NCBI GenBank assembly: GCA_021831785.1 | Contig: JAKBMB010000020.1 | Location: forward strand, 1-64,000 | Origin: Deltaproteobacteria bacterium | Lineage (GTDB): Bacteria; Desulfobacterota; Binatia; Binatales; Binataceae | Direction: 5' to 3' | Length of the DNA: 64,000 nucleotides | Shown: positions 2,082 to 39,586 of the stretch, in pieces | Numbering within the stretch: the first letter of the stretch is position 1 | Layout of the letters: each line of letters opens with the position of its first letter | Made by a program: the position numbers and the translations under genes | The notes under the pieces: model-generated | Database searches by the model: none | The model's input: the letters and a program-made list of their open reading frames with translations, nothing else | Told to the model about the DNA's origin: nothing

Positions 2082-2185
2082 GGCCTTGCGGCGCTTGAAG
2101 ACTCGGGGCGCATACCGCGCCCAACGTCAGACGGCGGGCGAGCGCCCGCCAAGGCGTCCGGCGCTCCACGCTTCAAGGAGAGGTG

Positions 2186-2908
2186 ATGTCCGAGATACAG
2201 TTGTTTGCGGGCTGCCTGGCGCAGACGAGTTTTCCCCAGGTCGCCGAGGCGGCGAACGAGGTGATGATCCGCTTGGGGCTCAGGGTGCGCCGCCTAAGCG
2301 CTGCTTTCTGTTGCGGCCAGATGGCGTTCAACGACGGCTTGCGGCACGAGGCGACCGCGCTTGCGCGCCGCCTGCTCGATGCCGCCGACCCCAGGCTGCC
2401 GCTGGTGCTGCCCTCGGGATCCTGCGCCGCGATGGTGCGCATCTTTTACAGCGACCTTCTGGCGGGCGATCCGGAGCTTGCCGGCAAAGCGCAGCGCCTT
2501 CGGCCGCAGGTTTTCGAGTTTTCCGAATATCTGACTCGGGTGCTCAAGGCGACCGACGTCGGCGCGCGCTTCGAGCACCCGGTCGCCTACCATCCCTCGT
2601 GCCATTTGACGCGGGAACTGCGCATCACGGACGGTCCGCCGGCGCTGCTCAAATGCGTGCGCGGACTAACGCTGTGCGAGTTCGAGAAAAGCGAGGAATG
2701 CTGCGGCTTCGGCGGATTGTTCTCGGTTAAGTTTCCCCATATTTCGGCCGCGATGCTCGAGGACAAAATCGCGCACATCAGCGCCAGTGGCGCCAAGGCC
2801 GTGATCTCATGCGACTTAGGCTGCCTGATGCAGATCGGCGGCGGACTACACCGGCGAAAAGCGCCGATCGAGGTTCGCCATCTAGCCGAGGTGCTCGCCA
2901 GCAGATGA
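2186..2908 (+). CDS. lutA: LutA-type (Fe-S)-binding oxidoreductase, CCG domains
   Basis: A 240-residue protein of the LutA/GlcF-like family. It contains two cysteine-rich CCG domains: the first near the N-terminus (FAGCLAQT, then FCCGQMAFN), the second around CHLTREL, EECCGFGGLFSVK and CDLGCLMQIGG. These cysteines bind a non-cubane iron-sulfur cluster in related heterodisulfide-reductase-type subunits. It should work with LutB and LutC in oxidising L-lactate. ATG at 2186 is preferred over the adjacent GTG at 2183 because an AAGGAGAGG ribosome-binding site sits just upstream. Confidence 0.92.
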   Translation: MSEIQLFAGCLAQTSFPQVAEAANEVMIRLGLRVRRLSAAFCCGQMAFNDGLRHEATALARRLLDAADPRLPLVLPSGSCAAMVRIFYSDLLAGDPELAGKAQRLRPQVFEFSEYLTRVLKATDVGARFEHPVAYHPSCHLTRELRITDGPPALLKCVRGLTLCEFEKSEECCGFGGLFSVKFPHISAAMLEDKIAHISASGAKAVISCDLGCLMQIGGGLHRRKAPIEVRHLAEVLASR

Positions 2909-3125
2909 GATTCGAGCGCCGCACGCGCGCGCTCGGGTGAGTTCGACCAGCGTTCAAGCGCGCGCCAGGCCAAGGGTCGCCAAAGGCGGCCCGCGCAGCG
3001 CGCCTGCCCTTGAGCCTGAGAAGCCTCGTGCGCGAGAGGCGCCAGAACCCCACCACTGTCAGCTACGTACTGAACGAGTCCGTTCTCTTGATCCGGCATT
3101 TCGAATTCTATAGCTTTAGCGCCAC

Positions 3126-4580: not shown

Positions 4581-4944
4581 TATCGGGCCGCAAGGATCGG
4601 CGCGAGCCGCAGGCTTGCTGTCGATAAAAGGCGAGCCCGCCGCCGGTCGGGCGACGCGCGCCGGAAACGCCTGATGCTGCTGATCCGCAAAGCCGCCCGA
4701 GACCTTGGTTCGGTCGGCGGGTAAGCGCGCGCGTTGAGCTGCGCGTAATTGAGTCACGAGGGCTTGTCGTTTTGCGCGTGCTCGCTGAGTACCTTAAGGT
4801 CTGGCCAGCGCAAGGGCAGCTAACCGGGCTTGAGAGCGCCGATGTGGGCCTTCCCTGGGAGCGCCATACGAAAATCGTTTCAAAGCCCTTTTTCGCGGAC
4901 ATCCGTTAATCTGAGCAGCAGAGCGCAGCAGGCGAGTTATTGCG
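4581..4944 (+). other. Intergenic stretch, no gene seen
   Basis: 364 bases between the M23 peptidase and the glycerophosphodiesterase. Open frames on the minus strand here give compositionally biased Arg/Ser/Ala-rich translations without any recognisable family. It probably holds the promoter of the downstream gene, but I cannot point to convincing -35/-10 boxes. Confidence 0.4.
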
Positions 4945-5736
4945 ATGCGAAGCAAGCTTGAGACAGATTTCTTCAGTTTGCCGCGGCCGCGCGTGATGGC
5001 CCATCGGGGACTCAGCGGTCTTTTTCCTGAGAACACGTTGCTGGCTTTCGAAGAAGCGGCAAGGGTCGGCGCCCCCTATATCGAGCTCGACGTGCACATG
5101 ACGCGCGACGGCGAAGTGATCGTATGTCATGACGCGGACCTAAAGCGCACCACGGACCGCGCCGGTCTGATCCACGAGTTGAGCTACGCCGAGGTCGCCG
5201 CTGCCGACGCGGGCTACAACTTTGGCGGCACGAAAGGAAAATTTCCCTTTCGCGGTCAAGGGCTTTCGGTACCGCGGTTGGCGGATGTCCTCGCGGGATT
5301 TGCGCAAATTCACTTTGTGATCGAGGTCAAGCAGATCGAGCCCAGCCTGATAGCGGCAATAAGCGAAGTGATCGAGAAAGCGCATATGCGCCGCCACGTG
5401 CTTATCGCCAGCGAACATCAGCAGCCGCTGAGCGAAGCGAGGGAGATGCTGGCAGGCGTTCCCACCAATTTTTCTGCCCTGGAAACGGCGGAGTTTTTCC
5501 GCCGCCTCGCTATCGGAATGGCGGGCTATGAGCCCCCCGGCGAGGCGCTGCAGATTCCCCCACAGCATCAGGGCTTAAGACTTGTGACCGAGCAGAGCGT
5601 GGCTGGGGCGCGCGACCTGGGCGTCGAGATGCACGTGTGGACGGTGAACGACCCCGCCGAGATGCGGTCGTTCTTGCGCCTGGGTGCGCATGGGATCATC
5701 ACGGATTATCCCGACCGAATGCTCGCGCTGGTCTAA
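4945..5736 (+). CDS. Glycerophosphodiester phosphodiesterase
   Basis: A 263-residue protein that hydrolyses glycerophosphodiesters to glycerol-3-phosphate and an alcohol. The GDPD TIM-barrel signature is complete: H20 and R21 in the MAHRG motif, E29 in PENT, E47 and D49 in IELDVH, and H62-D63 in CHD. The C-terminal strands (VHMWTVND-like and IITDYPD) are also typical. There is no signal peptide, so it is likely cytoplasmic, like UgpQ. The ATG at 4945 has only a weak upstream purine stretch. Confidence 0.93.
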   Translation: MRSKLETDFFSLPRPRVMAHRGLSGLFPENTLLAFEEAARVGAPYIELDVHMTRDGEVIVCHDADLKRTTDRAGLIHELSYAEVAAADAGYNFGGTKGKFPFRGQGLSVPRLADVLAGFAQIHFVIEVKQIEPSLIAAISEVIEKAHMRRHVLIASEHQQPLSEAREMLAGVPTNFSALETAEFFRRLAIGMAGYEPPGEALQIPPQHQGLRLVTEQSVAGARDLGVEMHVWTVNDPAEMRSFLRLGAHGIITDYPDRMLALV

Positions 5737-5829
5737 TCGCGCTAATCGCGGCCGCCGCATGCCGCCGAAGGCGCCACTGCCGTAGGCGCGAACGCGCCCT
5801 GCCGCTCGGCGCGCTGGGAGGTGTTTTCA

Positions 5830-6849
5830 ATGAAGCTTGACGCGTTAATGGACGTTCGCGACTTGCGTTCGGTGCCGGCCGCAGCGGCCGCGGCGCAACG
5901 GGTAGGCTTCGACGCGTTGTGGGCACCCGAGGCCGGCAACGATCCGCTTTTAACGCTGGCGCTGGCCGCCGAGCACACCAACAAGGTCAAGCTCGGCACG
6001 GCGGTGCTGGTGGCTTTTCCACGCAGTCCGATGGCCACCGCGTACGGCGCCTGGGAGCTTGCCGGGCTTTCTCGGGGACGCTTTATCCTCGGGCTGGGCA
6101 CTCAGGTCAAAGGTCATATCGAGCGGCGCTACGGTATCAAGTGGGAGCCGCCCGTGCCGCGCATGCGCGAGTACGTGGAGTCGCTGCGCGCGATCTTCAA
6201 GTGCTGGAGCGAGGGCACAGGCCGGCTATCGTACCAAGGTAGGTACTATAATTTCTCGCTGATGACGCCGTTTTTTGCTCCGCCTCCGCATGAATTTTAC
6301 CGCATCCCCATCTATGTCGCCGGAGTCAACCCCATGATCTGCAAGATGGCGGGCGAGCTGTGCGACGGTTTGCACGCCCATCCGTTGAATTCGCCCAAGT
6401 ACTTGCGCGAGCGCGTGCTGCCGCACGTGGAGGCGGGCTTGAAGAAGGCCGGACGCAGGCGCGAGGATTTCGCGATGGTGACCGGAGTATTCGTGATCAC
6501 CGGCAGTTCGCAAAAGGAGATCGACCAAGCTCGGGAAAGCGTTCGCCAGCAGATAGCCTTTTATGCCTCGACGCGAACCTACCGGGCCGTGCTCGACACG
6601 CACGGCTGGGGCGAGGTCGCCTCGAGGCTGCACGAAAAGGCAGCCAAGGGCGACTGGCGCGGGATGGGCCGCGAGATCACTGACGAGATGCTTGACGTTT
6701 TCGCGATGGCCGGCAGCTTCGACGAGATCGGCGCCAGGATCAAAGCACGGTACGCCGGCCTGCTTGATCGCGTGACCTTCTATACGAGCTTTCGTCCGGG
6801 CGTCGAGGACGAAAACTGGCGCCGGCTTTGCTTGCAGTTCAACGCCTAG
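5830..6849 (+). CDS. LLM class F420-dependent oxidoreductase
   Basis: A 339-residue member of the bacterial luciferase-like monooxygenase superfamily, the subgroup usually annotated as F420-dependent (TIGR03617-like). Visible family patterns are the N-terminal LDALMDVRDL start, GFDALWAPEAGNDP, the LGTAVLVAFPRSPMATA strand, and RFILGLGTQVKGHIERRYG. The fold is a TIM barrel binding F420 or FMN. A GTG at 5821 would add three residues, but the GGGAGG ribosome-binding site at 5814-5819 is spaced correctly for the ATG at 5830. The substrate cannot be told from the sequence. Its closest relatives, as I recall them, are in actinobacteria and in uncultured F420-using lineages. Confidence 0.9.
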   Translation: MKLDALMDVRDLRSVPAAAAAAQRVGFDALWAPEAGNDPLLTLALAAEHTNKVKLGTAVLVAFPRSPMATAYGAWELAGLSRGRFILGLGTQVKGHIERRYGIKWEPPVPRMREYVESLRAIFKCWSEGTGRLSYQGRYYNFSLMTPFFAPPPHEFYRIPIYVAGVNPMICKMAGELCDGLHAHPLNSPKYLRERVLPHVEAGLKKAGRRREDFAMVTGVFVITGSSQKEIDQARESVRQQIAFYASTRTYRAVLDTHGWGEVASRLHEKAAKGDWRGMGREITDEMLDVFAMAGSFDEIGARIKARYAGLLDRVTFYTSFRPGVEDENWRRLCLQFNA

Positions 6850-7948: not shown

Positions 7949-8857
7949 ATGCGCAAGGTGCTTTTGTACGCGGAATCGGCACAATCGGCGGCGCTAATCC
8001 AACGCGCCGAGGAGCTTTTCGCCCGCGGCAGCGTGAGCCTGGTGAAGGACGAGCCAAAGACCAAGGCGGGCTTTATCCTCGATGGCGAGGGCCGCACGCG
8101 CTTCGTCAAGCGGTTTGAAGTGCGCTCACGCGGACGGGGGCTCCTCGAGCGGGTGCGCGGCTCGCGCGCCGCGCGCTCTCTTAAGGGCGCGGGACTGCTC
8201 GGCGGCGCCGGCTTCGCGCGGCCGATACCGCTGGCGGCGATGGAACTGCGCCGGGCCGGCATGGTGCGGTGCAGCTATCTTTTGAGCGAAGCGCTTTGTC
8301 GAGCGCGAACCTTCAGCGTGTTCATCGACCGGCGGACCGGGCCCGCCGGCTTCACCTATCAAAGACGCGCCCAGGTCTTGCATGCAGTTGCGCGCGAGGT
8401 GCGGCGGCTCCACGACGCCGGGCTGTTTACTTCCGACCTGCAAGAAACCAATCTCATGTTGGAGGAGGGGCCTCAGCGCGTGCAGATTTATTTCGTTGAC
8501 CTCGACGGCTTCCGGCGCCTGGCGGCCGCGTCGTGGAGCTCGCGCCGGCGCAATTTGGTGCAGCTCGACCGCAGCGTCGGCCGCTTTCTGAGCTATGCCG
8601 AGCGCCTGCGTTTTCTGCGTGATTATCTCGGCGCGCCGTCCGGTCACTTTAGCCGGGGGCAAAAGCGCCCGCTTTTTAATCAACGAGACGAGCGGGGGCG
8701 GAGGCATAAAATGGCGACCCAGCTTTTGAGCGAACGCGCGCGCAAAGATCGAGCGAACCTGCGCGGACGGCGTTATCGAACGCTTTTTTACAGCCTGCTC
8801 CGCGCCCGCGTGCTGACTTTGCGTTTGGGAGGATTACGCGCCAGATGCAACCGCTAG
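7949..8857 (+). CDS. Kdo/WaaP-like lipopolysaccharide kinase family protein
   Basis: A 302-residue protein with the fold of small kinases that phosphorylate LPS core sugars. The pattern FVKRFEVRSRG gives the ATP-binding lysine strand, GLFTSDLQETNLML the catalytic loop with D and N, and IYFVDLDGFRRL the metal-binding DxD-like strand. The C-terminus is strongly basic, suggesting membrane association at the inner leaflet. Its 3' end overlaps the VIT1/CCC1-like gene by 13 bases, so the two are likely co-transcribed. Assignment is by motif pattern; the exact sugar target is not predictable. Confidence 0.78.
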   Translation: MRKVLLYAESAQSAALIQRAEELFARGSVSLVKDEPKTKAGFILDGEGRTRFVKRFEVRSRGRGLLERVRGSRAARSLKGAGLLGGAGFARPIPLAAMELRRAGMVRCSYLLSEALCRARTFSVFIDRRTGPAGFTYQRRAQVLHAVAREVRRLHDAGLFTSDLQETNLMLEEGPQRVQIYFVDLDGFRRLAAASWSSRRRNLVQLDRSVGRFLSYAERLRFLRDYLGAPSGHFSRGQKRPLFNQRDERGRRHKMATQLLSERARKDRANLRGRRYRTLFYSLLRARVLTLRLGGLRARCNR

Positions 8858-9576
8858 TCCAGGCTTTTGGCAGCCGCCGTTACGCTCACCATACCGAGCA
8901 GGTGCACGCGCGCGCCGGAAAAATTCTGCGTGACTTGACGCTGGGTCTCAACGACGGAATGGTGGCGTCTTTCGCCGTCACTTCAGGCGTCGGCGCGGCC
9001 AGCCAGACCAGCGCTCTGGTGATCATCGCCGGACTGGCGGAGACCGTGGGTGGGGCGATATCCATGGGACTTGCGGCGTTCGCCTCGGCGCGGGCGCAAC
9101 TCGACTTCTACCAGAGCGAGGTCGAACGCGAGAACGAGGAGATTCAATTTTGGCCCGAGCACGAGCGCGAGGAGATTCGCGCGATTTACCGCGAAAAGGG
9201 TTTCGAAGGAAGCCTGCTCGACCAGATCGTAAACCATATCACGGCCGATCGCACGCGCTGGCACAACGTGATGATGCGCGAGGAGCTGGGATTTGCCCCG
9301 GAATCCTTCGATCCGCCGCTTCGCTCCGGACTGGTGGTCGCTTTGTCCTATCTGATCGGCGCGCTGGTTCCGGTACTGCCGTATTTTTTTGCTCAGCCGC
9401 GCAAAGGCGTGATCGCCTCGGCAATCGTCGCGCTCGCCACGCTGTTTGTCCTGGGAGTCGTCAAGGGCACGATTACGCGCAGACCGCTTTTGCGCAGCGG
9501 TGTGGAGACGGCGCTAATTGCGGCACTCGCCGCAGGCGCCGCCTTTATCATCGGCCGGCTGGTGGGCAGCCGCTGA
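8845..9576 (+). CDS. VIT1/CCC1 transporter family protein
   Basis: A 243-residue inner-membrane protein of the vacuolar-iron-transporter family, expected to export Fe(II) or Mn(II). The first helix pair LTLGLNDGMVASFAVTSGV and the glycine-rich GGAISMGLAAFASARAQ segment are diagnostic. They are followed by a Glu-rich cytoplasmic metal-binding region (ERENEEIQFWPEHEREEIR). Three C-terminal helices lie at about 155-240. The ATG lies inside the end of the kinase gene. A GGGAGG stretch upstream is rather far (about 14 bases) for an ideal ribosome-binding site, which fits translational coupling. Confidence 0.9.
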   Translation: MQPLVQAFGSRRYAHHTEQVHARAGKILRDLTLGLNDGMVASFAVTSGVGAASQTSALVIIAGLAETVGGAISMGLAAFASARAQLDFYQSEVERENEEIQFWPEHEREEIRAIYREKGFEGSLLDQIVNHITADRTRWHNVMMREELGFAPESFDPPLRSGLVVALSYLIGALVPVLPYFFAQPRKGVIASAIVALATLFVLGVVKGTITRRPLLRSGVETALIAALAAGAAFIIGRLVGSR

Positions 9577-9730
9577 AGCCGGGTTCTCTGCTCTTGGCTT
9601 GCCGCAGTCAACCGGGTGCAGGGCTCCGCCCGTTAATGTGAACCGCTCGACCCTAAGACGGGGCGCACGTCGCAGCGCTAATGGACGGGTCTGCTATTCC
9701 GTGAATGAGTTGGCGGGTATTCGTTTGAGG

Positions 9731-9824
9731 TGCGGGATTCTTCGGCGCGCGGAGAATAGCGGAAGCAAGCCGTATTGGTGGTGGTCATTCTCGACCGCTG
9801 CAGCGGCGGCCAAAGAATCCCGCA
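9731..9824. repeat. Inverted-repeat element with GGGATTCTT arms
   Basis: The arms TGCGGGATTCTTCGG (9731-9745) and CCAAAGAATCCCGCA (9810-9824) are complementary apart from one G-T type mismatch. A smaller palindrome CCGCTGCAGCGG lies inside. The arm core GGGATTCTT recurs in the hairpin at 28239-28269, so this may be a dispersed non-coding repeat. It sits in the gap between two convergent genes, where it could act as a bidirectional terminator. Confidence 0.6.
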
Positions 9825-9862
9825 ACACCGGCAATCGCCATCCTAGTCAGGGCGGCACCACA

Positions 9863-10450
9863 CTAGATGTTAGCGGTTAGCGTTGTCTCAAAGCCGCGTC
9901 GGTCTTGTATTCGCTGCAAGCACCCCTGCACATCGAACTCCAGCCTCTCCTGTTCGCCCATCGCCGGTTCGAACAGCCATATAGCGCGCTGGTCGTCCGC
10001 CTGCACATAAGAATGCTTGACCGAGCGCGCCAAAAGCGTGGTCGAGTCAATGAGTGCCACTCTGCCCGTCCATCGATGCTGTTCGCGACGGCGCAGATGC
10101 GCCACGATTAAAGCTTTGCATATCGCTAGGTCGGCATCGATTTCACGAAAGCGCCCCAGTTGTACCTCGACCGGACTGATCGCCGAGAGGGCTCTTACCG
10201 AACCCTGCATCAGATTATCAATAACTCGGTACTCGGCGCTGCGCGCGAAAGGACCGCGTCGGTAACGCAAGCGCACCTCAAGCATAAACCCGGCCTCGTC
10301 CAGGGCAGCGTCGACTTCGTAGACAGCTTTACTGAGCGCTGACTCGCGTCTGGTAGTTAGCCGCCCGACTTCCAGGCGCGTTTCTTCGATAGCGAGCACC
10401 TCGCCCTGCGTCCGGAATTCGTAACGATAGCGGCCGCTGGGGATGAGCAT
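9863..10450 (-). CDS. Protein of unknown function, putative glycolipid/beta-rich domain
   Basis: A 195-residue protein I do not recognise. It starts at an ATG preceded by a GGGAGG ribosome-binding site, supporting a real gene. The translation alternates charged and hydrophobic residues (YRYEFRTQGEVLAIEETRLEVGRL, then MLEVRLRYRRG), suggesting an all-beta fold. No signal peptide, membrane helix or cysteine cluster is seen beyond two isolated cysteines. It stands alone between the VIT1 gene and a downstream cupin on the same strand. Confidence 0.7.
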   Translation of the reverse strand: MLIPSGRYRYEFRTQGEVLAIEETRLEVGRLTTRRESALSKAVYEVDAALDEAGFMLEVRLRYRRGPFARSAEYRVIDNLMQGSVRALSAISPVEVQLGRFREIDADLAICKALIVAHLRRREQHRWTGRVALIDSTTLLARSVKHSYVQADDQRAIWLFEPAMGEQERLEFDVQGCLQRIQDRRGFETTLTANI

Positions 10451-10649
10451 CGCTACCTCCCATCAAGGCCGATTCAGACGCGACCCCCAACGTTTATTGA
10501 GAGCGGTCATCAAGGATCAGCACCTGTCCTTCCCGGACGGCGCAAAAGCCCGACTTTTTGCAACGCAAAACACGTATCGTCTCTGCCACGTTGTTTGGGC
10601 TCAAGGCTCTCGACTTAGAGCTGAAGTTAGAAACCGCTAGCGACACCAG

Positions 10650-11150
10650 CTACTCCTCGCCCTCCCAGTAATCGACTTCAGCGTCCGCTCTGAGTGACTT
10701 AGCAAGCGTGCGCTTTTCCTTAGGACCCCCGGGCGCGGCGCCTACGAAAATGCTCATCTTATTCGAGTCCGAGTAGACCGTGACCTCCGGTTCGATCATG
10801 GTCGATAGACACAGGTAGCGGAGCACCGAATCGGAGGTGTTGGTCAGCCGATGAGCGGCTGCGGGTTGAGGTAACAAGGCGATATAGTCTCCGCGCGCGA
10901 CCGCAAACTCACGCGTCCCTAGGCGCAGCGTACCTGAGCCTTCAAGGACGTAAATCGCCTCTTCGTTAGCGGTGTGGTAGTGCGCTGGCCAGGCGCTCTT
11001 GCCCGGGGCTAGCTCATAGAGCGAGCAACCGAGCAACTCGCCGCCTGCAGCGGCGCCGAGTTGCTTGCGCACGCTATGAAATCCGACGCCGTGGCCCATC
11101 GGGAGCCACGCCAACTCGTCCTCATTCACAATATTCTGTCGCTTCGCCAT
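10650..11150 (-). CDS. Cupin domain-containing protein
   Basis: A 166-residue single-domain cupin. The two conserved motifs are present: the first as WPAHYHTANEEAIYVLEGSGTLRLG (metal-binding His, His and Glu), the second around HRLTNTSDSVLRYLCLST. Such proteins bind metal and serve as small-molecule binding or isomerase proteins; the ligand here is unknown. The C-terminal SNKMSIFVGAAPGG segment is typical of a cupin subgroup annotated near sugar or transcription proteins. It is followed downstream by amtB on the same strand in the reverse order, with no obvious link. Confidence 0.85.
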   Translation of the reverse strand: MAKRQNIVNEDELAWLPMGHGVGFHSVRKQLGAAAGGELLGCSLYELAPGKSAWPAHYHTANEEAIYVLEGSGTLRLGTREFAVARGDYIALLPQPAAAHRLTNTSDSVLRYLCLSTMIEPEVTVYSDSNKMSIFVGAAPGGPKEKRTLAKSLRADAEVDYWEGEE

Positions 11151-11189
11151 CCTGGTGCTCTCTGTTACGAATAGATGGTGTCCTCAGTA

Positions 11190-12518
11190 TCACACTAATT
11201 CGAGCGCGTAGGCGCTTTCGTTGTGCTCGGTGAGGTCAAGACCCATGCTTTCGTCTTCCCCAGAGACGCGAAGCCCGACCAGGCCGTTGACGACCTTAAG
11301 CAGGATCAGGCTGCCGACAAAGGCGAAACTGACGCTGGCGACGACCGCGATTATCTGCACGAGTAATTGATGAGGATTGCCGTTGAACAACCCGTCGCCG
11401 CCTCCCGGATTGAGCAAGCGGTCGGCGAAGAGGCCGGTCGCGATCGAGCCCCAGATACCGCCGACGGCGTGCACGCCGACGACGTCCAGCGCGTCGTCAT
11501 AGCCCAGCCACTGCTTGGCGCTGACGGCGAAGTAGCAAAGCGCTCCCGCCGCCGCCCCGATCACTATCGCTGCCAGCGGTCCGACGTAACCCGAAGCCGG
11601 GGTTATCGCCACCAGGCCGGCGACCGCTCCGGAGGCCGCGCCGAGCATCGTCGGCTTGCCCCGAGTCGCCCATTCGGCCGCAGTCCAGCCCAGGCAAGCA
11701 GCCGCGCTCGCGGCGTGCGTCGCGACGAAAGCCACAACCGCCACGCCGTTTGCGGCAAGCGCGCTGCCGGCGTTAAAGCCAAACCATCCGACCCATAGAA
11801 GCCCGGCGCCGGTCAACGTCATGGTCAGGTTGTGCGGCGGCGTCGGCACGCTGGGATAGCCGGCGCGCCGGCCAATGACGAGCGCCGCGGCCAGCGCCGA
11901 GACGCCCGATGAAATGTGCACCACCGTGCCGCCGGCAAAGTCCAGCGCGTTGAGCCGATGAAGCCATCCGTCGAGTCCCCACACCCAATGCGCCAGAGGG
12001 TCGTAGATAAGCGTCGTCCATAAAAGGCTGAAAAGAAAAAAGCCGCGAAAGCTGATGCGCTCGGCAAAAGAGCCGGTGATCAACGCCGGCGTGATAATCG
12101 CGAACATGCACTGAAACACCATGTAAGCCTGGTGCGGAACGGTGGGCGCGTACGCCGAGCCCGCGCTGGCACTCACCCCGCGCAGGCCAAGCCAGGACAG
12201 ACCGCCGATCAATCCCATGTGATCGCCCGAGAAAGCCAGACTGTAGCCGAGCAAAATCCATTGCACGGTGACCAGGCCGGCCATGATGAAATTTTGCATC
12301 AGCACCGACAACACGTTTTTGCGCCGCACCATGCCGCCGTAAAACAGGGCCAGGCCAGGCGCGGTCATCATCAAAACCAGCGCCGAGCTGGTCAAGACCC
12401 ATGCGGTATCGCCGCTGTCGATCTTGACCGGCGCTTCAGCCGCAAAAGCCGCCTCCGCGCTCAGCATCAGCCATAAAAACCCAACCAATAGTTCCACAGT
12501 TCGCCTACAAAGGCGCAT
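11190..12518 (-). CDS. amtB: Ammonium transporter
   Basis: A 442-residue Amt/MEP/Rh channel for ammonium uptake through the inner membrane. A signal sequence (residues about 1-28, ending AEAAFAAEA) is followed by eleven predicted helices. The start FYGGMVRRKN, the FAGGTVVHISSGVSALAAALVIGRR signature and the DALDVVGVHAVGGIWG pore histidine segment are diagnostic. The open frame extends back to 12755, but ATG 12518 is chosen because an AAGGGGAG ribosome-binding site precedes it and it yields the normal length and signal peptide. No glnK/glnB partner gene is next to it, which is unusual for bacterial amtB. Confidence 0.95.
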   Translation of the reverse strand: MRLCRRTVELLVGFLWLMLSAEAAFAAEAPVKIDSGDTAWVLTSSALVLMMTAPGLALFYGGMVRRKNVLSVLMQNFIMAGLVTVQWILLGYSLAFSGDHMGLIGGLSWLGLRGVSASAGSAYAPTVPHQAYMVFQCMFAIITPALITGSFAERISFRGFFLFSLLWTTLIYDPLAHWVWGLDGWLHRLNALDFAGGTVVHISSGVSALAAALVIGRRAGYPSVPTPPHNLTMTLTGAGLLWVGWFGFNAGSALAANGVAVVAFVATHAASAAACLGWTAAEWATRGKPTMLGAASGAVAGLVAITPASGYVGPLAAIVIGAAAGALCYFAVSAKQWLGYDDALDVVGVHAVGGIWGSIATGLFADRLLNPGGGDGLFNGNPHQLLVQIIAVVASVSFAFVGSLILLKVVNGLVGLRVSGEDESMGLDLTEHNESAYALELV

Positions 12519-28203: not shown

Positions 28204-28304
28204 GTCCCGTTAATAACTTTACAAATATTGTCAGCCATCCGGGATTCTTCGCGCAGCGAAGAATCCCGGTCCGCGCGGGTTGTTCGTCAAGTTATTTACG
28301 GGAC
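28204..28304. repeat. 101-base nested palindrome
   Basis: The outer arms GTCCCGTTAATAACTT (28204-28219) and AAGTTATTTACGGGAC (28289-28304) pair with one mismatch. Inside is a perfect 14-bp stem CCGGGATTCTTCGC (28239-28252) and its complement (28256-28269) around a GCA loop. The whole unit could form a cruciform or a long RNA hairpin. It abuts the right end of MITE copy 1 and lies directly upstream of the DUF2877 gene. It may be a second kind of miniature element. Confidence 0.8.
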
Positions 28305-28324
28305 ATTATACTTGGTGGTGTATA

Positions 28325-29413
28325 GTGCTTGGTCAACTCATCGTTGAGGCGACATCGATAAGCGCGTGCGCGCTCAAATCGCTTAATTCCAACCCCGGGC
28401 GGCGTGGCGTGGTTCACGACGTTCACCGTCGCGCGCTAAACATACTTTGGGACAGCGAATTGATTTCGGTCGTCTCACCCGAGCTCGGAAGTTTCCCCAA
28501 CGCGCTGGTTGCCCGGGTAGACCGCCTTGCCGAGCTTTTGCGCGTCGGCGACAAGGTCTTTCGCGTGTCCGAAGGCCTTATTGTCCAAGGCGCGGCTCCC
28601 GTCCTGTTCGACCTTCGCCAGGCCGCGTGCTGGTCACCGATCTTGAAACCCGCCGCGCCGGCAGACGGATGGGGCGCAGTAGGAATGCGGCTTAAATTTG
28701 TGCTGCGAGGGGCCGGCGCGCGCGCCGGCGCCGAGGGCTTCGGCCCGCTGCTCGCCGCGCTCGCGCTGGGCTCTGCGCCCTTGACGCCTGAATCGCTCTC
28801 CCCGCTTTGCCGGTACGCGCGAGGAAAGATTACCGCGCTGCTGCGGGCGCTTGCGGCATCCGACGCGCGCCGGCTCATACGGTGCGTCCGCGCGCTGATC
28901 GGGCTTGGCGCCGGGCTTACACCTTCAGGCGACGACCTGCTCGTGGGTATGCTCGCCGGGCTTGCCGCCGCCGCCGACGCGCGCGCCGTTATCCTCGCCC
29001 GCGCAATCCTCGCCACGCCCCCCAACCGCACGACGATTCTCGCCCAGACCCTGCTTCGCCATGCGTGCGAGTTCGAGTTCAGCGCAAGACTTCATGACGT
29101 AGTGAGCGCGTTTTTTGCTCCGGATCCGTACACCTTGGAGAGGCGCGCGCTCGCCGCGGTAGCCTGGGGTGAAAGCTCCGGCGCCGACTCGCTATTAGGT
29201 CTGGCCCTGGGATTAGACGCGGCCGTTGAACGCCGTTGTCAAGGGACCCGCCTCGGTTTCGATATGGAACAAGCCTTTCACTTCAAGCGGCGCTCGCGGC
29301 GCTCCAAGGATGACCGTGAAGAGCTTACGTCCGGCAACGCGCGAGCCGTCTTTGACGAGAACGCGAAAAGAGCCGATAGCAACGTTACGCGGGCGGCACA
29401 TTCTTTTCGGTGA
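28325..29413 (+). CDS. DUF2877 (AllH-like) protein
   Basis: A 362-residue protein with the DUF2877 signature: GLGAGLTPSGDDLLVGMLAG and the late ESSGADSLLGLALGLDAA. DUF2877 includes AllH of the oxamate carbamoyltransferase system in enterobacteria, but none of the partner proteins (FdrA-like or YlbE-like) is nearby, so the function here is open. The open frame begins with TTG at 28280; GTG 28325 gives a better N-terminus. The last 45 or so residues (from about HFKRRSRRSKDD) are basic and not family-like, possibly an extension created by local rearrangement. The 5' end borders a palindrome and a MITE. Confidence 0.8.
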   Translation: MLGQLIVEATSISACALKSLNSNPGRRGVVHDVHRRALNILWDSELISVVSPELGSFPNALVARVDRLAELLRVGDKVFRVSEGLIVQGAAPVLFDLRQAACWSPILKPAAPADGWGAVGMRLKFVLRGAGARAGAEGFGPLLAALALGSAPLTPESLSPLCRYARGKITALLRALAASDARRLIRCVRALIGLGAGLTPSGDDLLVGMLAGLAAAADARAVILARAILATPPNRTTILAQTLLRHACEFEFSARLHDVVSAFFAPDPYTLERRALAAVAWGESSGADSLLGLALGLDAAVERRCQGTRLGFDMEQAFHFKRRSRRSKDDREELTSGNARAVFDENAKRADSNVTRAAHSFR

Positions 29414-31311: not shown

Positions 31312-32634
31312 TCACCCGCCTCCGGCGGCCTGGGCAGGCTCGAGCGCTTGGTCCTGGGGGGTCCAGTCAAGGGCGCTGCCCGGCGCGCTGTACTCGTATG
31401 GGCCGTGCCGCACAACCGGGGTCAGCGCGAAATTGCCATGCCGCGGAGGCGACTCGACCGTCCATTCGAGCGTATTGGCGCGCCACGGGTTGTTTTCGGC
31501 CCGTGGACCTCGAACCATGCTCAGCACAAAATTAACTACGAACGGAACCTGGGAAGCCAGCAACAACATCGCTGCAACCGTGGCCACGACCTGAAAGTGC
31601 TGAAGCGGCTGGAACAGTGGATAAGCCGCCGCCGAGTAAACTCTGCGCGGCGTTCCGGCCAGACCTACAACAAACAGCGGGATGAAAACCACGTTGAACA
31701 AAACGAACGTCAGCCAGAAATGAATCTTGCCCAGCCGCTCGTTCATCATGCGGCCGAACATCTTCGGGTACCAGTAATAAAGACCGGCAAAGCCGGCGAA
31801 AAAGGTGACCGGGAACATCGTGTAATGAAAGTGAGCAACAACGAAATAGGTGGCGTGAAGATAAATGTCGGTGGTCTCGGATCCCAGAAAAATGCCGGTC
31901 ACTCCTCCCAGGAGAAAACTCGCCAGCCCTCCAAGCGCGAACAGCATCGGCGTTTCCAGCGTTATCAAACCGCCCCACAGGGTGGCCACCATGGCGAACA
32001 CGATGATCACGAACGGCACCGAGATGAGGATCGTCGTCACGCTGAAAGGCGTCGCAAGACGCGGATCCATGCCGCTGACGAACATGTGATGCGCCCAGAC
32101 GATCAGACTTAAGCTGTCCGCGGTTAGCACGCTTATCACGATCGTTCGGTAGCCGAAGATGGGCTTGCGCGCAAACACCGGGAAAATCTCCAGCATGATC
32201 CCGAAGCCGGGTAGCGCGATTACGTAAACCTCGGGATGCCCGAAGAACCAGAACAGATGCTCCCAGAGCAGCGGATCGCCGCCTCGCGCCGGCAGGTAAA
32301 AGCCGGTGCCCACCAGCCGGTCGAGCAACAGCATTATGGCGCCCGCAATCAATGGTCCAACCGAAAGCAGGAAGAGAAGCGAACCGCTCGCTTCGTACCA
32401 GACCAGCAGCGGCAGCCGCCATAGCGTCATCCCCGGGGCTCGAAGCGTGAGGGGCGTGGTCAGGAAATTGACGCCCCCCATCAAAAACGACGCGAACTCT
32501 AACGCAAGTGCAAGTATCCAGAGGTCTTGACCCAGGACCGCCGAAGTATAGGATGGGTCAGCCGACAGCGGCGTGTACGCCGTCCAGCCCGAGGCCGCGG
32601 CGCCTCCCGGCACGAAAAAACTCACCAAAAGCAC
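31312..32634 (-). CDS. ctaD: Cytochrome c oxidase subunit I, C-terminal fragment (frameshifted)
   Basis: This frame encodes 440 residues covering helices 4 to 12 of the catalytic subunit. The binuclear-centre residues are all here: WFFGHPEVYVIALPG (CuB ligand His with the cross-linked Tyr), VWAHHMFVSGMDP (the other two CuB histidines) and ATYFVVAHFHYT (heme ligands). The open frame begins with a GTG in the middle of a membrane helix, so it is not a natural start. The N-terminal part is in another frame at 32558-33040; a single-base insertion at about 32638 joins them. Confidence 0.9.
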   Translation of the reverse strand: MLLVSFFVPGGAAASGWTAYTPLSADPSYTSAVLGQDLWILALALEFASFLMGGVNFLTTPLTLRAPGMTLWRLPLLVWYEASGSLLFLLSVGPLIAGAIMLLLDRLVGTGFYLPARGGDPLLWEHLFWFFGHPEVYVIALPGFGIMLEIFPVFARKPIFGYRTIVISVLTADSLSLIVWAHHMFVSGMDPRLATPFSVTTILISVPFVIIVFAMVATLWGGLITLETPMLFALGGLASFLLGGVTGIFLGSETTDIYLHATYFVVAHFHYTMFPVTFFAGFAGLYYWYPKMFGRMMNERLGKIHFWLTFVLFNVVFIPLFVVGLAGTPRRVYSAAAYPLFQPLQHFQVVATVAAMLLLASQVPFVVNFVLSMVRGPRAENNPWRANTLEWTVESPPRHGNFALTPVVRHGPYEYSAPGSALDWTPQDQALEPAQAAGGG

Positions 32635-33040
32635 CAGCGAGGATGAGGAAGAAAGTCCATACGGAGAGCATGTTAAGACGCGGAAAAGCCATGTCTCTCG
32701 CGCCGATCATCAGCGGGATGCAGAAATTGCCAAACGTGCCCAGCAAAAGCGGCATGGCCACGAAGAACACCATGATCGTGCCGTGCATCGTGACCATCGC
32801 GTTATAGACATCCGGCGTTATCAGTGGGTGTCGCGCTCCCGCGGGCGCCGGCCATGCCAACTGCCAGCGTATCAGGTAAGTGGTGACACTACCCGCCACC
32901 GACCAGAACAAGGCCAACGCCAGATACTGTTTGGCGATCGTCTTGTGATCGGTGGAAAACACGTAGTGCCGCCAAAAGCCCGCTTCGGCGTAGTGGCCCT
33001 CAATCGCACCCTTGCGTGACGTGCCCGCTGTCGCCATCAT
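32558..33040 (-). CDS. ctaD: Cytochrome c oxidase subunit I, N-terminal fragment (frameshifted)
   Basis: This frame encodes the start of subunit I: STDHKTIAKQYL, MHGTIMVFFVAMPLL (heme a ligand His) and GNFCIPLMIGARDMAFPRLNMLSVW, which is the start of the D-channel. It is authentic for about 136 residues, then runs out of frame (AFGEFFRAGRRRG..) and stops. Deleting one base near 32638 would continue into the SFFVPGGAAASGWTAY of the other frame. The ATG overlaps the ctaC stop (ATGA), so both lie in one operon. Either a real frameshift or an assembly error is possible. Confidence 0.9.
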   Translation of the reverse strand: MMATAGTSRKGAIEGHYAEAGFWRHYVFSTDHKTIAKQYLALALFWSVAGSVTTYLIRWQLAWPAPAGARHPLITPDVYNAMVTMHGTIMVFFVAMPLLLGTFGNFCIPLMIGARDMAFPRLNMLSVWTFFLILAGAFGEFFRAGRRRGLGLDGVHAAVG

Positions 33041-34839: not shown

Positions 34840-35787
34840 ATGTTGGTTCACGTGCTCGGGTGCACAGCCGGCGGCGGATTTCCCCAGTGGAACTGCAACT
34901 GCAACAACTGTAGCGGAGTGCGCGACGGACGACCAAGTCTCAAAGCCCGCACCCAGTCGTCGATTGCCATCAGTTCCGACGGCAAGGTTTGGGTGCTAAT
35001 CAATGCGAGCCCGGATATCAGGGCCCAGATCGAGGCATTTCCGGCGTTGCGTCCCAGGCGCGCCATTCGCGACTCAGCGATCGCCGCGATCGTGCTCATC
35101 GACGGCCAACTGGAGCACTGCGCGGGATTGCTCTCGCTGTATCAGGGCGGGGGGCTATCCTTCGGGGAGAGGATGATAGGACCTACGCTCAACGTTTACT
35201 GCACCGACGCGCTTGGCGAGGATCTGACTACCACGCTCGCGGTTTTCCCGCTGCTCGAGCGCTACTGCGGCGTTAATCGTCATCGCATAGACATCGACAC
35301 CGGCGCGCAGTGGCTGATCCCGCAGGCCGAAGGGCTGCGTTTTCTCGCCGTGCCGGTCAAGAGCCGGGCGCCCATATACTCACCCCATCGCGAGAATCCC
35401 CATCGAGGCGACACCATCGCGCTATGGGTCGAGGATTTGCGCTCCCGCCGCGCTCTTCTTTACGCCGGCGCCCTTGGAGACGTCGACCCCGAGGTTTTGC
35501 GCAGGATGGAGCAAGCGGACTGTGTGTTCGTCGACGGCACGTTCTGGAGCGATCAGGAGACCGCCGCGCTGGGTATCTCGCCGGTGCTCTCGCACCAGCG
35601 CGGTCATCTTCCCGTGGCCGGTCCGGGCGGGATGATCGAGGTTTTACGTCCGCTTAAGCGCCCCCGCAAGATCCTCACCCACGTCAACAACACCAATCCG
35701 ATTCTCGACGAGACTTCACCCGAGCGCGCCCAACTCGCCCTCGAGGGAGTCGAGGTCGCTTACGACGGCATGGAATTCGAGCTCTGA
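34840..35787 (+). CDS. pqqB: Pyrroloquinoline quinone biosynthesis protein PqqB
   Basis: A 315-residue metallo-beta-lactamase-fold protein. The PqqB N-terminus is textbook: [24 protein letters not shown], with the cysteine trio that binds structural zinc. Later blocks include [21 protein letters not shown] and [47 protein letters not shown] in separate stretches. PqqB hydroxylates the tyrosine in the precursor peptide. A GAGAAGG site precedes ATG. It heads the pqqBCDE run. Confidence 0.96.
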
Positions 35788-35812
35788 ACAGGAATTGCGG
35801 GGGGCCATAAAT

Positions 35813-36565
35813 ATGGGGGAAAGCGACCTCGCACCTTGGGATCGCGGCGAGTTCGAGCGCCAACTCCGCGCGCTGGGCGAGCGCTATCATAGCGCTCATC
35901 CTTACCACGTGATGATGAACGAGGGGCGGCTTACTCCAACTCAACTGCGCGGCTGGGTTGCCAACCGCTTCTATTATCAGGTGAATCTGCCGCTCAAGGA
36001 TGCCGCGGTTCTCGCGAACTGCTCCGAGATGGCGGTGCGTCGGCGCCTGGTCCAGCGAATGGTCAATCAGGACGGGGCCGCGCAGGGTGTAGGCGGGATC
36101 GAAGCCTGGCTCAAGCTCGGCGAGGCTTGCGGCCTTTCGCGCGAAGAGATGCTCTCGATGCGCGACGTGCTGCCGGGCGTGCGCTTCGCGGTCGACGCGT
36201 ACGTCAACTTTGCACGCCGCGCGCCGTGGCAGGAAGCGATGTGCGCCTCGCTCAGCGAGCTGTTCGCCTCGAGCATCCATCAGCAGCGCCTGGCTAACTG
36301 GCCGCGCCTTTATCCGTGGGTCAAGGCCGACGCGTTGGAATACTTCCGCGAGCGCTTGCACCAGGGGCCGTCGGACGTTTCCCATGCGCTCGAGATCGCG
36401 CTTGATTATTTCAAGACGCGCGCCGAGCAAGAACGCGCGCTCGGCATACTGGCGTTCAAACTTGACGTTTTGTGGACCATGGCGGACGCGATGTACCTCG
36501 CGTACCTAGTCAACATGCCGCCGTACTCAGTTGTCCGTAAGCGGGAGGGACAAAGTGCAACTTGA
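35813..36565 (+). CDS. pqqC: Pyrroloquinoline-quinone synthase PqqC
   Basis: A 250-residue all-helical oxidase of the TENA/heme-oxygenase-like fold that performs the last ring-closing oxidation of PQQ. Conserved segments are [36 protein letters not shown], and [30 protein letters not shown] with the active-site His and Arg. ATG 35813 is used; a TTG at 35795 opens the frame. Its end overlaps pqqD by about 11 bases. Confidence 0.95.
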
Positions 36566-36836
36566 CGAAGACCGCGTGGTGGAGATGGGGCCCGGGTTTC
36601 GCCTTCAGTGGGAGCCGGCCCAACAGCGGTACGTGCTGCTGTATACGGAAGGAATGGTGCGCCTCAACCGCAGCGCGGGCGAGATCCTCAAGCGCTGCGA
36701 CGGCAGCCGAACCGCAACCGAGATAACACTCGAGGTCAAGAGCGCCTTCGGGCACACCGACGTTGAACAAGACACACGCAACTTTATGGAGGACGCCTAT
36801 GGACGCGGCTGGATCCGTTACAAGCCGACCACCTAG
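36555..36836 (+). CDS. pqqD: PqqD peptide chaperone
   Basis: A 93-residue RiPP recognition element that binds PqqA and delivers it to PqqE. The typical pattern [36 protein letters not shown] is present, with the LN..A.EIL motif. GTG 36555 is preceded by GGGAGGG; a TTG at 36531 is less likely. It overlaps pqqC at its start and pqqE at its end, so pqqCDE are translationally coupled. Confidence 0.92.
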
Positions 36837-37929
36837 CCCGCTGATGGTGCAAGCCGAGCTCACTTACTCCTGCCCGCTGCAGTGCCCTTACTGCTACAAC
36901 GGGGTTGACTTCGCTTTTCACCGCGACGATCTGACCACTGAGCAGTGGCTTGACGCACTGCGCCAGGCGCGCGCGCTCGGCGCCGTCCAGCTTGGTTTTA
37001 CCGGCGGCGAGCCGATGTTGCGCCCCGACCTCGAGACGCTGGTGCGCGAAGGCCGCCAACTCGGTTACTGTATCACTCTTCTCACCTCCGGAATGCTCAT
37101 GACCGAGAAGCGCCTGCAAGCGCTTAAAGAAGCCGGACTCGACGGGGTACAGGTCGCCTTTCCCTCCAGTTCTCCCGCCGAGTGCAATTTTATGAGCGGA
37201 ACTGCGTCGTTCGAGCAAAAGCGCGAAACCGCGCGGTTGGTCAAGGGATACGGCCTGTCGTTGGTGCTTAACTTCGTGGTATATCGGGACAATATCGACA
37301 AGACCGAGCAGATGTTGGAACTCGCGACCGAGCTCCAGGCAGATTACGTCGAATTCGCCAACTGCCAGTTCCACGGGTGGGGTTTCCTCAATCGCGACCG
37401 CCTAATGCCCACGCTCGAACAACTCACGCGCTCAGAAGCGTTAGTTAATCGCTTCCGTGAACAGCACCAGGGACGGATGAGGGTCTTTTACGTGATTCCG
37501 GACTACTATGCGGGTCGCCCGAAGCCCTGCCTAGGTGGTTGGGGCACTATCTTGCTGGCCATTGGACCTGACGGCGCGGCGACGCCGTGCCCCGGCGCGC
37601 GCGGCATGCCCGGCGTAGAGCTTCCCAATGTGCGCGAGAGCAGCCTCGAGACTATTTGGTACGATTCGCCAGTTTTCAACAAGTTCCGGGGCTTCGAGTG
37701 GATGAAGGAGCCGTGCCGGTCGTGCGAGGAGAAAACCAAGGACTTCGGCGGATGTCGCTGCCAGGCATACCTACTCACCGGCGACCCCGCCAACGCCGAC
37801 CCGACGTGCAGTCTTTCGCCCCACCACGGCCTGGTTGAGGCCGCCCGCGCGGGTTCTCAAACGTCGGCGTGCGCAAGACCCTATATCTTTCGTAACGTCA
37901 AAAACTCACGCCGACTCTGTGCGGACTGA
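36799..37929 (+). CDS. pqqE: PqqA peptide cyclase PqqE (radical SAM)
   Basis: A 376-residue radical SAM enzyme that makes the C-C cross-link between Glu and Tyr of PqqA. The SAM-cluster motif CPLQCPYC is at C25, C29 and C32, followed by FTGGEPMLRPDL. The SPASM-type C-terminus has CPGARG, CRSCEEKTKDFGGCRCQAYLLTGDP and TCSLSPHH for auxiliary clusters. ATG 36799 carries a GGAGGA site inside pqqD. The frame reading from 36763 would not be the natural start. Confidence 0.96.
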   Translation: MDAAGSVTSRPPSPLMVQAELTYSCPLQCPYCYNGVDFAFHRDDLTTEQWLDALRQARALGAVQLGFTGGEPMLRPDLETLVREGRQLGYCITLLTSGMLMTEKRLQALKEAGLDGVQVAFPSSSPAECNFMSGTASFEQKRETARLVKGYGLSLVLNFVVYRDNIDKTEQMLELATELQADYVEFANCQFHGWGFLNRDRLMPTLEQLTRSEALVNRFREQHQGRMRVFYVIPDYYAGRPKPCLGGWGTILLAIGPDGAATPCPGARGMPGVELPNVRESSLETIWYDSPVFNKFRGFEWMKEPCRSCEEKTKDFGGCRCQAYLLTGDPANADPTCSLSPHHGLVEAARAGSQTSACARPYIFRNVKNSRRLCAD

Positions 37930-38122: not shown

Positions 38123-38815
38123 GTGGAAGCGCTTTTGATGCTTGCGCGCATGCTCCATTTGCTGTTTGTGATCTCCTGGATCGGCCGGCTTTACTGGGTC
38201 AACTTCGCCGAGAGCCCGTTCTTGCTCGAGACCAACACGCGCAGCCGCGGTTCGGACGTGATTTGGTGGTGGAAATGGTCGCCCTTGGGCACGGTGCTTT
38301 CGGGCGGATTTTGCCTGGCCACCAAATGGCGCCAAGCCGGGTTAACGCGGTTTGTCCACGCGCCCTACGGGATTTTCATTCTCACCGGCGCGGCGATAGG
38401 CCTTATCATGGCGGCGAACGTCTGGCTCGTGATTCGACCGCAGAAGCGACTGCTAAAGCACCCGTCGGCTGGCCCTGCGCCAACCTCGCGCGAGGGCAAC
38501 GCGGCCGCCAGCCTGCGCCGAATCGGCTTGGTGACTCGCACCAACACACTGCTCTCGATTCCGGCGCTGTTCTTCATGGGCGCGGCGGGCCATTACATGC
38601 CGTGGCCGTGGAACGAGATGAGCCGCGCGCGGCTTATGCTATGGATTGCCCTAAGCGCGCTTGTCATTGTCCCGGTCGAGTTGAATGCGCTGATCGGCAC
38701 GCGCGGGCTCGGCAAGCGGCTGCTCGAATCGCCGCCGGCCGTCGTATTTTCGGCGGTGGCGCTGTGCGCGATGCTGTTCGGTATCACAAGTTTCGCCTTA
38801 AGCGGCCGCCTGTAA
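38123..38815 (+). CDS. PuuD-like integral membrane protein, first of a tandem pair
   Basis: A 230-residue protein with about six membrane helices. Its pattern ARMLHLLFVISWIGRLYWVNF near the start and TRTNTLLSIPALFFMGAAGHYMP resemble the membrane half of PuuD-type cytochrome c urate hydroxylases, but there is no heme-binding C-terminus. Start is a GTG that aligns with its neighbour's. It lies 193 bases after pqqE. The adjacent paralog at 38888 suggests a heterodimer. The function is not known; a membrane electron-transfer or anchor role is a guess. Confidence 0.72.
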   Translation: MEALLMLARMLHLLFVISWIGRLYWVNFAESPFLLETNTRSRGSDVIWWWKWSPLGTVLSGGFCLATKWRQAGLTRFVHAPYGIFILTGAAIGLIMAANVWLVIRPQKRLLKHPSAGPAPTSREGNAAASLRRIGLVTRTNTLLSIPALFFMGAAGHYMPWPWNEMSRARLMLWIALSALVIVPVELNALIGTRGLGKRLLESPPAVVFSAVALCAMLFGITSFALSGRL

Positions 38816-38887
38816 ATCGGGCAAGCTTGCGTAAGGGTGCGACACCCTGGCGTCGGCTCGTCCTCCAGCCCCACGGTGCGGAAGGGA

Positions 38888-39586
38888 GTGGAAAATCGCT
38901 TGGCCGAGCTCTTGATGGCGATTCGATGGCTTCACGTTTTACTTGGGACTATCTGGATAGGATTGCTGTACTCGTCGAACTTAAGGGGCCCACAAGCTGC
39001 CGCGCCGGATACGGATAACGCGCCGGATCGACGGCGCGAGCCGCTATGGCTGGGCGGCTTTCCGTGGTCAGCGGGCGGCACGGTCCTGTTCGGCGCCGCT
39101 TATCTCGCCCTGGTCGAGCGGCACCGGCGCCTTGCGCGGCTAGCCCTGAGCCCGTATGAGACCACGATTCTTACCGGCAGCGCGCTAGGGGTCACCATGT
39201 TTATTAACGCGCTTGTGTTCTGGCTAGCGCGCAAGCGGCCGGCGGCGGCGGACCTCACCCGCGCGCTCGCGCAGCCCGCGCCTGCGGTGCGGGAAGCCGA
39301 CCGGCGAGCGATGCTGGCAACGCGGACAAACGTCCTGCTTTCGATCCCAATGCTCTTTTTCATGGTTGCGGCCAGCCATTACCGTCTTTTTCCGCATCTG
39401 AGCACAGCGCAGGCGACCGCGTGGTTCGCCACGGTGGGGAGCACAATTGTCGTGCTCGAACTGAACGCGCTGCTCGGTCTCGGCAAGACCGGCGAGCGCT
39501 TGCTCGGGACGGTCGGCGGCGCGGTTGGCTCGGGGTTCGCGGTCTGGGCGCTGTTATTCGTCATCAGCAAGATGCTTTTCGCATGA
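38888..39586 (+). CDS. PuuD-like integral membrane protein, second of a tandem pair
   Basis: A 232-residue paralog of the preceding protein. Shared patterns are AIRWLHVLLGTIWIGLLY, TRTNVLLSIPMLFFMVAASHYRLFP and VELNALLGLGKTGERLL. It also has about six helices and no heme motif. Start GTG 38888 is aligned to the neighbour; ATG 38915 or the TTGs between are also possible because the upstream GGAAGGGA stretch is too close to the GTG. It is 72 bases downstream of the first copy, so probably co-transcribed. Confidence 0.7.
   Translation: MENRLAELLMAIRWLHVLLGTIWIGLLYSSNLRGPQAAAPDTDNAPDRRREPLWLGGFPWSAGGTVLFGAAYLALVERHRRLARLALSPYETTILTGSALGVTMFINALVFWLARKRPAAADLTRALAQPAPAVREADRRAMLATRTNVLLSIPMLFFMVAASHYRLFPHLSTAQATAWFATVGSTIVVLELNALLGLGKTGERLLGTVGGAVGSGFAVWALLFVISKMLFA

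Follow-up and report, generated by a model that had tools for sequence, protein, structure and literature searches.

A second pqq gene set followed by two short DUF989 genes

The window, by which we mean the whole stretch of 64,000 nucleotides analysed, carries on its forward strand four pqq genes that were named by NCBIfam equivalogs: pqqB (34840..35787; TIGR02108, 357.6 bits), pqqC (35795..36565, likely start 35813; TIGR02111, 322.6 bits), pqqD (36531..36836, likely start 36555; TIGR03859, 91.3 bits) and pqqE (36763..37929; TIGR02109, 471.3 bits). All four scored above these cut-offs, PqqD falling slightly below that of NF002535; the listed start of pqqE falls inside pqqD, and its likely start lies further downstream. 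Directly after pqqE, on the same strand, are two ORFs for short membrane proteins of the DUF989 family, which we call PA (38123..38815) and PB (38837..39586), as the first-pass annotation had reported when it described tandem PuuD-like genes at this place. The GTG start listed for PB is probably too early, and a TTG at 38900 likelier, since the PB proteins of two relatives (G001 and G009, introduced below) begin at matching residues. Both genes score as coding by codon usage, judged with a codon table trained partly on the two themselves.

Elsewhere, the same genome (G000) carries a canonical pqqABCDE cluster, making the window pqqBCDE a second copy. The window set matches the canonical arrangement in the order and families of pqqB, C, D and E, yet no pqqA was found in it and PA-PB replaces the genes that follow the canonical pqqE, which in G000 encode an ABC ATP-binding protein, an ABC-2 permease (PF01061, above cut-off) and an M16 peptidase. 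By eye, the canonical clusters of G001 and G015 look like that of G000, and no relative of PA or PB was found by blastp (1e-8) in 13 canonical pqq loci (L138-L150). Upstream in the window, an AllH-like gene (oxamate carbamoyltransferase subunit family) lies at 28280-29413 (+), ~9 kb from PA/PB. A cox1-type gene for cytochrome oxidase subunit I, named by eye, lies at 31312-33040 (-) and seems to consist of two overlapping ORFs (31312-32634 and 32558-33040), a split that resembles a frameshift or an assembly error.

The unit recurs in the relatives that have two pqqE copies

Searching 57 related genomes for PqqE with TIGR02109, we counted only matches above the cut-off, because all 14 control genomes also gave weak matches, none of which exceeded it. 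Thirteen genomes had a pqqE by this measure (in G019 the gene lies in two pieces, each below the cut-off), and three of the 13 had two copies: G000, G001 of the same genus and G009 of the same family. These are the very genomes that carry PA and PB, a coincidence with a chance of 1 in 286 when calculated by hand. The order pqqB-C-D-E-PA-PB is the same in the window, in L055 (G001) and in L056 (G009), with the unit proteins of the two relatives 49-58% identical to those of the window (53% for PA, 50-51% for PB). Of 21 other window ORFs searched against the two loci, L055 matched none and L056 one, weakly: cox2, at 38% identity along a 60-residue stretch within the nosZ ORF. The recurrence of pqqBCDE-PA-PB in G001 and G009 thus indicates that the arrangement is not due to chance, and the conservation of the pair next to pqq genes beyond this strain, on which the first-pass annotation had made its reading depend, was indeed found.

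When 84,980 species were scanned with a PB profile, by a method that uses two short peptide patterns and hence can miss divergent relatives and may omit the window's own genome, 4 loci emerged: G001 (FK3.bin99), G009 (DX1.bin15) and two distant single genes. Among 148 genomes of the class, 44 had a relative at 1e-25, and the PB type occurred only in G000, G001 and G009 (E < 1e-127; next best 5e-52). With a PA profile, only G000 and G035 passed 1e-35 in a search of 395 genomes of the phylum that scored at most 7 candidates per genome and evidently did not draw G001 and G009, which would pass. The linkage of the two DUF989 genes to a spare pqq set is well supported.

Of the 13 canonical loci, 9 gave a pqqA in a motif search. 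Among the second sets only that of G009 did, with a PqqA that looks canonical; none was found beside those of the window and G001. In G014, a second pqqA-like peptide (L145, 4546, -) lies away from the pqq operon, ~2 kb from a gene for a PQQ alcohol dehydrogenase.

PA and PB share the DUF989 core of PuuD

Against the Pfam family Urate_ox_N (PF06181, DUF989; cut-off 26.9), PA scored 33.8 bits and PB 24.0 bits, the latter below the cut-off, as was the PB orthologue of G009 (21.2 bits), with no match for that of G001; the best stretch spans positions 166-279 of the 295 in the profile. PA and PB are 37% identical and fall in one DUF989 tree, bearing out their description as paralogues. Neither sequence contains a CxxCH haem motif or has a Pfam match to a cytochrome domain, so that the lack of a haem domain, also claimed at first pass, was confirmed. 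Of the two motifs said to be shared, TRTN[TV]LLSIP[AM]LFFM is common to both proteins, whereas VELNAL stands in PA and reads LELNAL in PB.

The six helices attributed to both proteins were borne out, as a prediction, for PA, the one modelled: its model, built from an 8-row alignment (pLDDT 77.9, pTM 0.75), contains six long helices (residues 2-28, 48-72, 81-112, 120-158, 168-194 and 204-227). Folding PA-PB as a single chain, with the stop read as Q and no alignment, gave a useless model (pLDDT 45.4, pTM 0.26). No match was found in the PDB by sequence search with the PA profile (E 5) or by Foldseek with the PA model (1e-3), and a VIA fold search with this model returned unrelated helical bundles (top 9ivk, Z 10.2; bd oxidase, 7.2; cytochrome b561, 7.1), with Z values below the level that the tool deems telling for such bundles.

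We aligned 69 DUF989 proteins (3 PA, 3 PB, 27 single-copy proteins of the class, 5 pqq-linked and 28 other proteins of Pseudomonadota, and 3 PuuD), and found G61, M96, N99, N141 and M152 in all 69 and H12, W19 and G21 in 68. Both PA and PB retain every one of these residues, while departing from the family consensus elsewhere (PA at W105R and Q108K; PB at R51P, P106 and Q108R). In addition, PA, PB and 28 of 28 single-copy proteins of the class all have H157, though it is not among the columns conserved above 85% in the 69-protein alignment. The helix I-II loop, predicted to be cytosolic and strongly conserved in PuuD (PMC4562309), is partly kept in PA, its residues being mostly changed or missing in PB. 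This asymmetry would fit one working and one supporting subunit. That PA and PB form separate clades (100/100 each) which co-occur in three genomes likewise fits a reading of the pair as two unlike subunits.

PuuD, the cytochrome c urate oxidase of Doniselli et al. 2015 (PMC4562309), shares with the pair the DUF989 core, the histidine of helix I and the invariant Asn and Met residues, but it is described with a cytochrome c domain, eight helices and neighbouring purine genes, where PA and PB have no such domain, six predicted helices (PA model) and pqq genes. Indeed, no purine context is shared around the pair, the genes common to the three loci being pqqBCDE. Closer in form are the short DUF989 proteins without cytochrome c that the same paper mentions, which similarly show a partial HMM match, no CxxCH and a non-purine context; these are given four helices, whereas the window has a diverged tandem pair after pqqE, with six predicted helices in PA.

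Active-site residues are altered in two of the three second PqqB and PqqC

To compare the second copies with canonical ones, we aligned 22 rows of PqqC, in the numbering of K. pneumoniae PqqC (1otw), and 21 rows of PqqB. We take H84, H154, Y175 and R179 of PqqC to be its oxygen site, and the first motif of PqqB presumably sits where metallo-beta-lactamases have HxHxDH. The second PqqC of both G001 and G009 carries H84Q, H154Q and R179Y, R179 being arginine in the other 20 of 22 rows. H84 is also Q in seven further rows (the second copy of the window and the canonical copies of G002, G005, G008, G014, G017 and G024), and H154 is M in G007, G030 and G038. The second PqqB of G001 and G009 shows H-N in place of D-H in the first motif and a P in place of the histidine of HxNNTNPIL; neither change occurs in any other of the 21 rows, of which G024 is incomplete at the first motif. 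These altered proteins are still 67 (PqqB) and 71% (PqqC) identical between the two genera, so they are probably not decaying and are probably retained for some use.

The second PqqC of the window, in turn, has Q at position 84 and retains H154, Y175 and R179, ruling out a loss of the presumed oxygen site in all three second copies. Its PqqB reads DGQLEH (E-H) and retains the histidine of HxNNTNPIL; in the majority of the other rows the first motif is D-x-Q-x-D-H or a close variant with a final DH. Judged by these residues, the second PqqB and PqqC of the window are nearly intact and look serviceable.

Descent of the unit

For PqqB, C and E, the canonical proteins of G000 and G001 share 80-90% identity and the second copies of the same two genomes 48-55%; between G001 and G009, which belong to different genera, the second copies reach 67-71% (51% for PqqD). 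The trees of PqqB, PqqC and PqqE each join the second copies from G001 and G009 as sisters (at least 100/99). A single origin of all second-cluster genes was considered and not upheld: the PqqE tree supports it, with the second copies of G000, G001 and G009 in one clade (100/98), but the PqqC tree groups the three weakly (58/16) and the PqqB tree does not recover them as a clade (2 changes; 8% of bootstrap trees). The unit's history may thus involve sideways transfer, a partly multiple origin or an old duplicate lost elsewhere; the window pqqBCDE-PA-PB set is probably transferable.

In the DUF989 tree, which was midpoint rooted and included 14 of 28 single-copy rows, the PA and PB clades are sisters (94/88), and a 100/99 branch sets them, together with single-copy genes from the window's own family, apart from the rest. 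The three genomes branch in a different order in the PA tree than in the PB tree, and long branches were flagged.

Most single-copy DUF989 genes of the class adjoin a cytochrome c gene

We extended the analysis to 28 single-copy relatives of the class, comprising 27 from the class search and G055 (loci L111-L137 and L006). By motif search, a small monohaem cytochrome c gene adjoins 22 of the 28, and a protein search added G035 as the 23rd single with such a neighbour. A single-copy DUF989 gene together with this cytochrome c is a split form of the membrane domain and cytochrome of PuuD. Three shorter relatives outside the 28 (G038, G044 and G050) have no such cytochrome c alongside, and it was not found in G000, G001 and G009. 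The cytochrome c as an obligate DUF989 partner was ruled out: it is present in 22 of the 57 relatives, 16 of which gave no DUF989 match, and no DUF989 gene was seen in 11 stretches of this kind that were inspected.

A short DUF989 relative turned up at 1e-10 in 86 of 398 Pseudomonadota genomes; pqqE lies within 1.5 kb of the DUF989 gene in one of 30 fetched loci (G551), and the close DUF989 type occurs in 3 of 371 genomes of the order of G551. Short DUF989 genes are therefore frequent away from pqq, and the family at large has no fixed tie to it.

DUF989 genes follow pqqE in some Pseudomonadota clusters lacking pqqB and pqqC

While PA had no match among plasmids at 0.01, a single-copy DUF989 relative used as plasmid query identified a cluster in Acidibrevibacterium fodinaquatile, a bacterium of acidic mine water, with the order pqqA-pqqD-pqqE-short DUF989-class-V aminotransferase-DHO_dh and neither pqqB nor pqqC anywhere on the plasmid. 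A plasmid of Methylovirgula sp. HY1 has the same gene order. G1199 and G1216 also hold a pqqA-D-E-DUF989 cluster with no pqqB or pqqC alongside, and in G551, where a canonical set in addition was looked for and seen, such a cluster lies 2.3 kb from pqqABCDE and adjoins a gene for a PQQ alcohol dehydrogenase. In all, pqqA-D-E-DUF989-SerC-PyrD clusters, two of them on plasmids, were located at L202 29530-33607, L203 12256-16200, L235 7286-11282, L244 ~8375-12448 and L245 ~8387-12469. Their PqqA proteins have a common ending, RLGFEVTAYVYVR, unlike the canonical PqqA here. In Methylovirgula, a pair annotated as cbpA/cbpB (modified peptide and radical SAM; L203 8839-10418) lies directly upstream of pqqADE-DUF989.

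In denitrifiers, Hyphomicrobium among them, Li et al. 2025 reported pqqAED-puuD-serC-pyrD in addition to classical clusters, and they speculated that this cluster completes PQQ without oxygen (PMC12423496). The window unit resembles these clusters in holding a pqqD and pqqE additional to the canonical set, with a short PuuD-like gene directly after pqqE. It differs in retaining pqqB and pqqC, in belonging to another phylum, in having two paralogous DUF989 genes, which group with single-copy genes of their own family, and in the six helices predicted for PA, compared with four given in that paper (PMC12423496). Moreover, tblastn (1e-5) with the Acidibrevibacterium and Methylovirgula proteins as queries found no relative of serC or pyrD in the window, L055 or L056, the last of which, the G009 contig, ends ~230 bases after PB. 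The combination of pqqBCDE with a DUF989 pair, in another phylum, did not appear in the literature searched.

A putative role in PQQ synthesis with little oxygen

Known PQQ synthesis ends with oxygen-dependent steps, and denitrifying methylotrophs nevertheless need PQQ. Bacteria with only canonical pqq genes (Klebsiella pneumoniae and Pseudomonas aeruginosa) are reported to make no PQQ in anaerobic growth (PMC12423496). In G009, the second pqq set (pqqA near 13780, pqqB at 14016 of L056) shares one contig with nosD and nosZ (1982-6061), nosZ lying ~8 kb from it. Near this set, L056 4034-11323 holds nosZ, nosD and a multihaem cytochrome weakly similar to hydrazine dehydrogenase. NosZ was found in 10 of the 57 relatives (8 above cut-off), among them G009 and, on another contig, G000; it is absent from G001. 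As a marker of the pair genomes it proved too weak (2 of 3 against 8 of 54; chance ~0.08, by hand).

We arrived at the hypothesis, in our view the best reading and one to which we assign a probability of about 0.45, that PA-PB carries out redox chemistry in PQQ synthesis when there is little oxygen, alongside the spare pqq enzymes. PA and PB, as two dissimilar halves, would together form a redox module in the membrane that has the DUF989 core of PuuD as its scaffold. PqqE, acting with PqqD, would cross-link a PqqA that probably comes from the canonical cluster, and in the window strain PqqB and PqqC could still hydroxylate the product and close the ring. At the cytosolic face, PA-PB would draw electrons from PQQH2 or a precursor of PQQ and hand them to the respiratory chain, with the consequence that the last oxidations of PQQ would need little or no O2. 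In G001 and G009, where residues at the presumed oxygen and metal sites of PqqB and PqqC are changed, the pair may do a larger share. Whereas the linkage of the genes and its recurrence, the duplicate pqq set, the protein family and the altered residues were observed, we infer the substrate, the direction of the electrons, the use at low oxygen and the heterodimer.

Several observations argue for this redox role: the unit is kept in G000, G001 and G009, and the two-copy genomes are the pair genomes; the Pseudomonadota clusters without pqqB and pqqC, a type reported in denitrifiers (PMC12423496), likewise have a short DUF989 gene after pqqE; the PqqB and PqqC sites are altered in G001 and G009 and the DUF989 invariants are kept in PA and PB; and a cytochrome c stands beside 22 of 28 single-copy genes, with nosZ ~8 kb away in G009. 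Others count against it. The nearly intact PqqB and PqqC of the window mean that the pair may only assist there, which argues against a full replacement, and H84Q also occurs in six canonical copies. Unlike the published cluster type, the unit has pqqB and pqqC, and serC and pyrD were not found. No pqqA was found beside the window and G001 sets, the unit contains no cytochrome partner, nosZ is absent from G001 and short DUF989 genes are common away from pqq. G038, G044 and G050 lack an adjoining cytochrome, and PA and PB depart from the DUF989 consensus.

A bolder version, which we regard as possible but doubtful, holds that PA-PB is a two-subunit membrane oxidase replacing O2 as electron acceptor, and that the window cluster is an intermediate toward a take-over by DUF989. 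The series would run from intact PqqB and PqqC with the pair (window), through altered PqqB and PqqC with the pair (G001 and G009), to their absence (the Pseudomonadota type). Should the redox role be true, PA-PB may let cells complete PQQ without the oxygen that the ordinary pathway requires. A second phylum in which PuuD-like genes are tied to a spare pqq set provides separate evidence for the 2025 proposal, and the pair gives a named protein couple with which to test oxygen-independent synthesis, key PqqB and PqqC residues being altered in two of three cases.

Other roles of the pair account for parts of these data. It is unlikely that the second cluster yields a PQQ-like product other than PQQ, tailored by PA-PB: such a product would suit the PqqB and PqqC of G001 and G009, altered at the active site yet probably kept for use, and the distinct ending of PqqA in the Pseudomonadota clusters, but the PqqA of the G009 cluster looks canonical and the window PqqB and PqqC nearly so. 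Export of PQQ across the inner membrane, in place of the canonical ABC transporter, seems less probable still. PA and PB do stand where the canonical G000 cluster has its ABC and M16 peptidase genes, and PQQ, a product of the cytoplasm, acts in the periplasm (PMC12124388); against this, the PuuD authors argue that DUF989 serves oxidation and not transport (PMC4562309), the residues in common with PuuD are kept in both PA and PB, and the Pseudomonadota clusters place DUF989 with enzymes.

We consider it very improbable that PA-PB is the membrane electron acceptor of a periplasmic PQQ dehydrogenase. PuuD is thought to feed electrons to a periplasmic cytochrome c (PMC4562309), each pair genome has 3-6 PQQ alcohol dehydrogenase matches, and a gene for such an enzyme adjoins the DUF989 cluster of G551. 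However, the unit common to the three loci contains neither a dehydrogenase nor a cytochrome, both cluster types link DUF989 to biosynthetic genes, and the number of dehydrogenases is not linked to the pair: with fragments counted, the pair genomes hold 6, 5 and 3 PQQ alcohol dehydrogenase matches, and G015 and G038, which have no pair, 5 and 8. The first-pass suggestion of a membrane partner for such an enzyme is therefore not borne out. Equally remote is the notion that the pair oxidises purines (urate) or travels with the pqq genes as an unrelated passenger. The Pfam domain is named for the N-terminus of urate oxidase and the AllH-like gene lies upstream, but PA and PB are of the short form without a cytochrome domain, and short DUF989 genes are described as having a context completely different from that of puuD (PMC4562309). 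As for a passenger, the linkage to pqq is kept at ~50% identity in changed surroundings, and a like linkage exists in another phylum.
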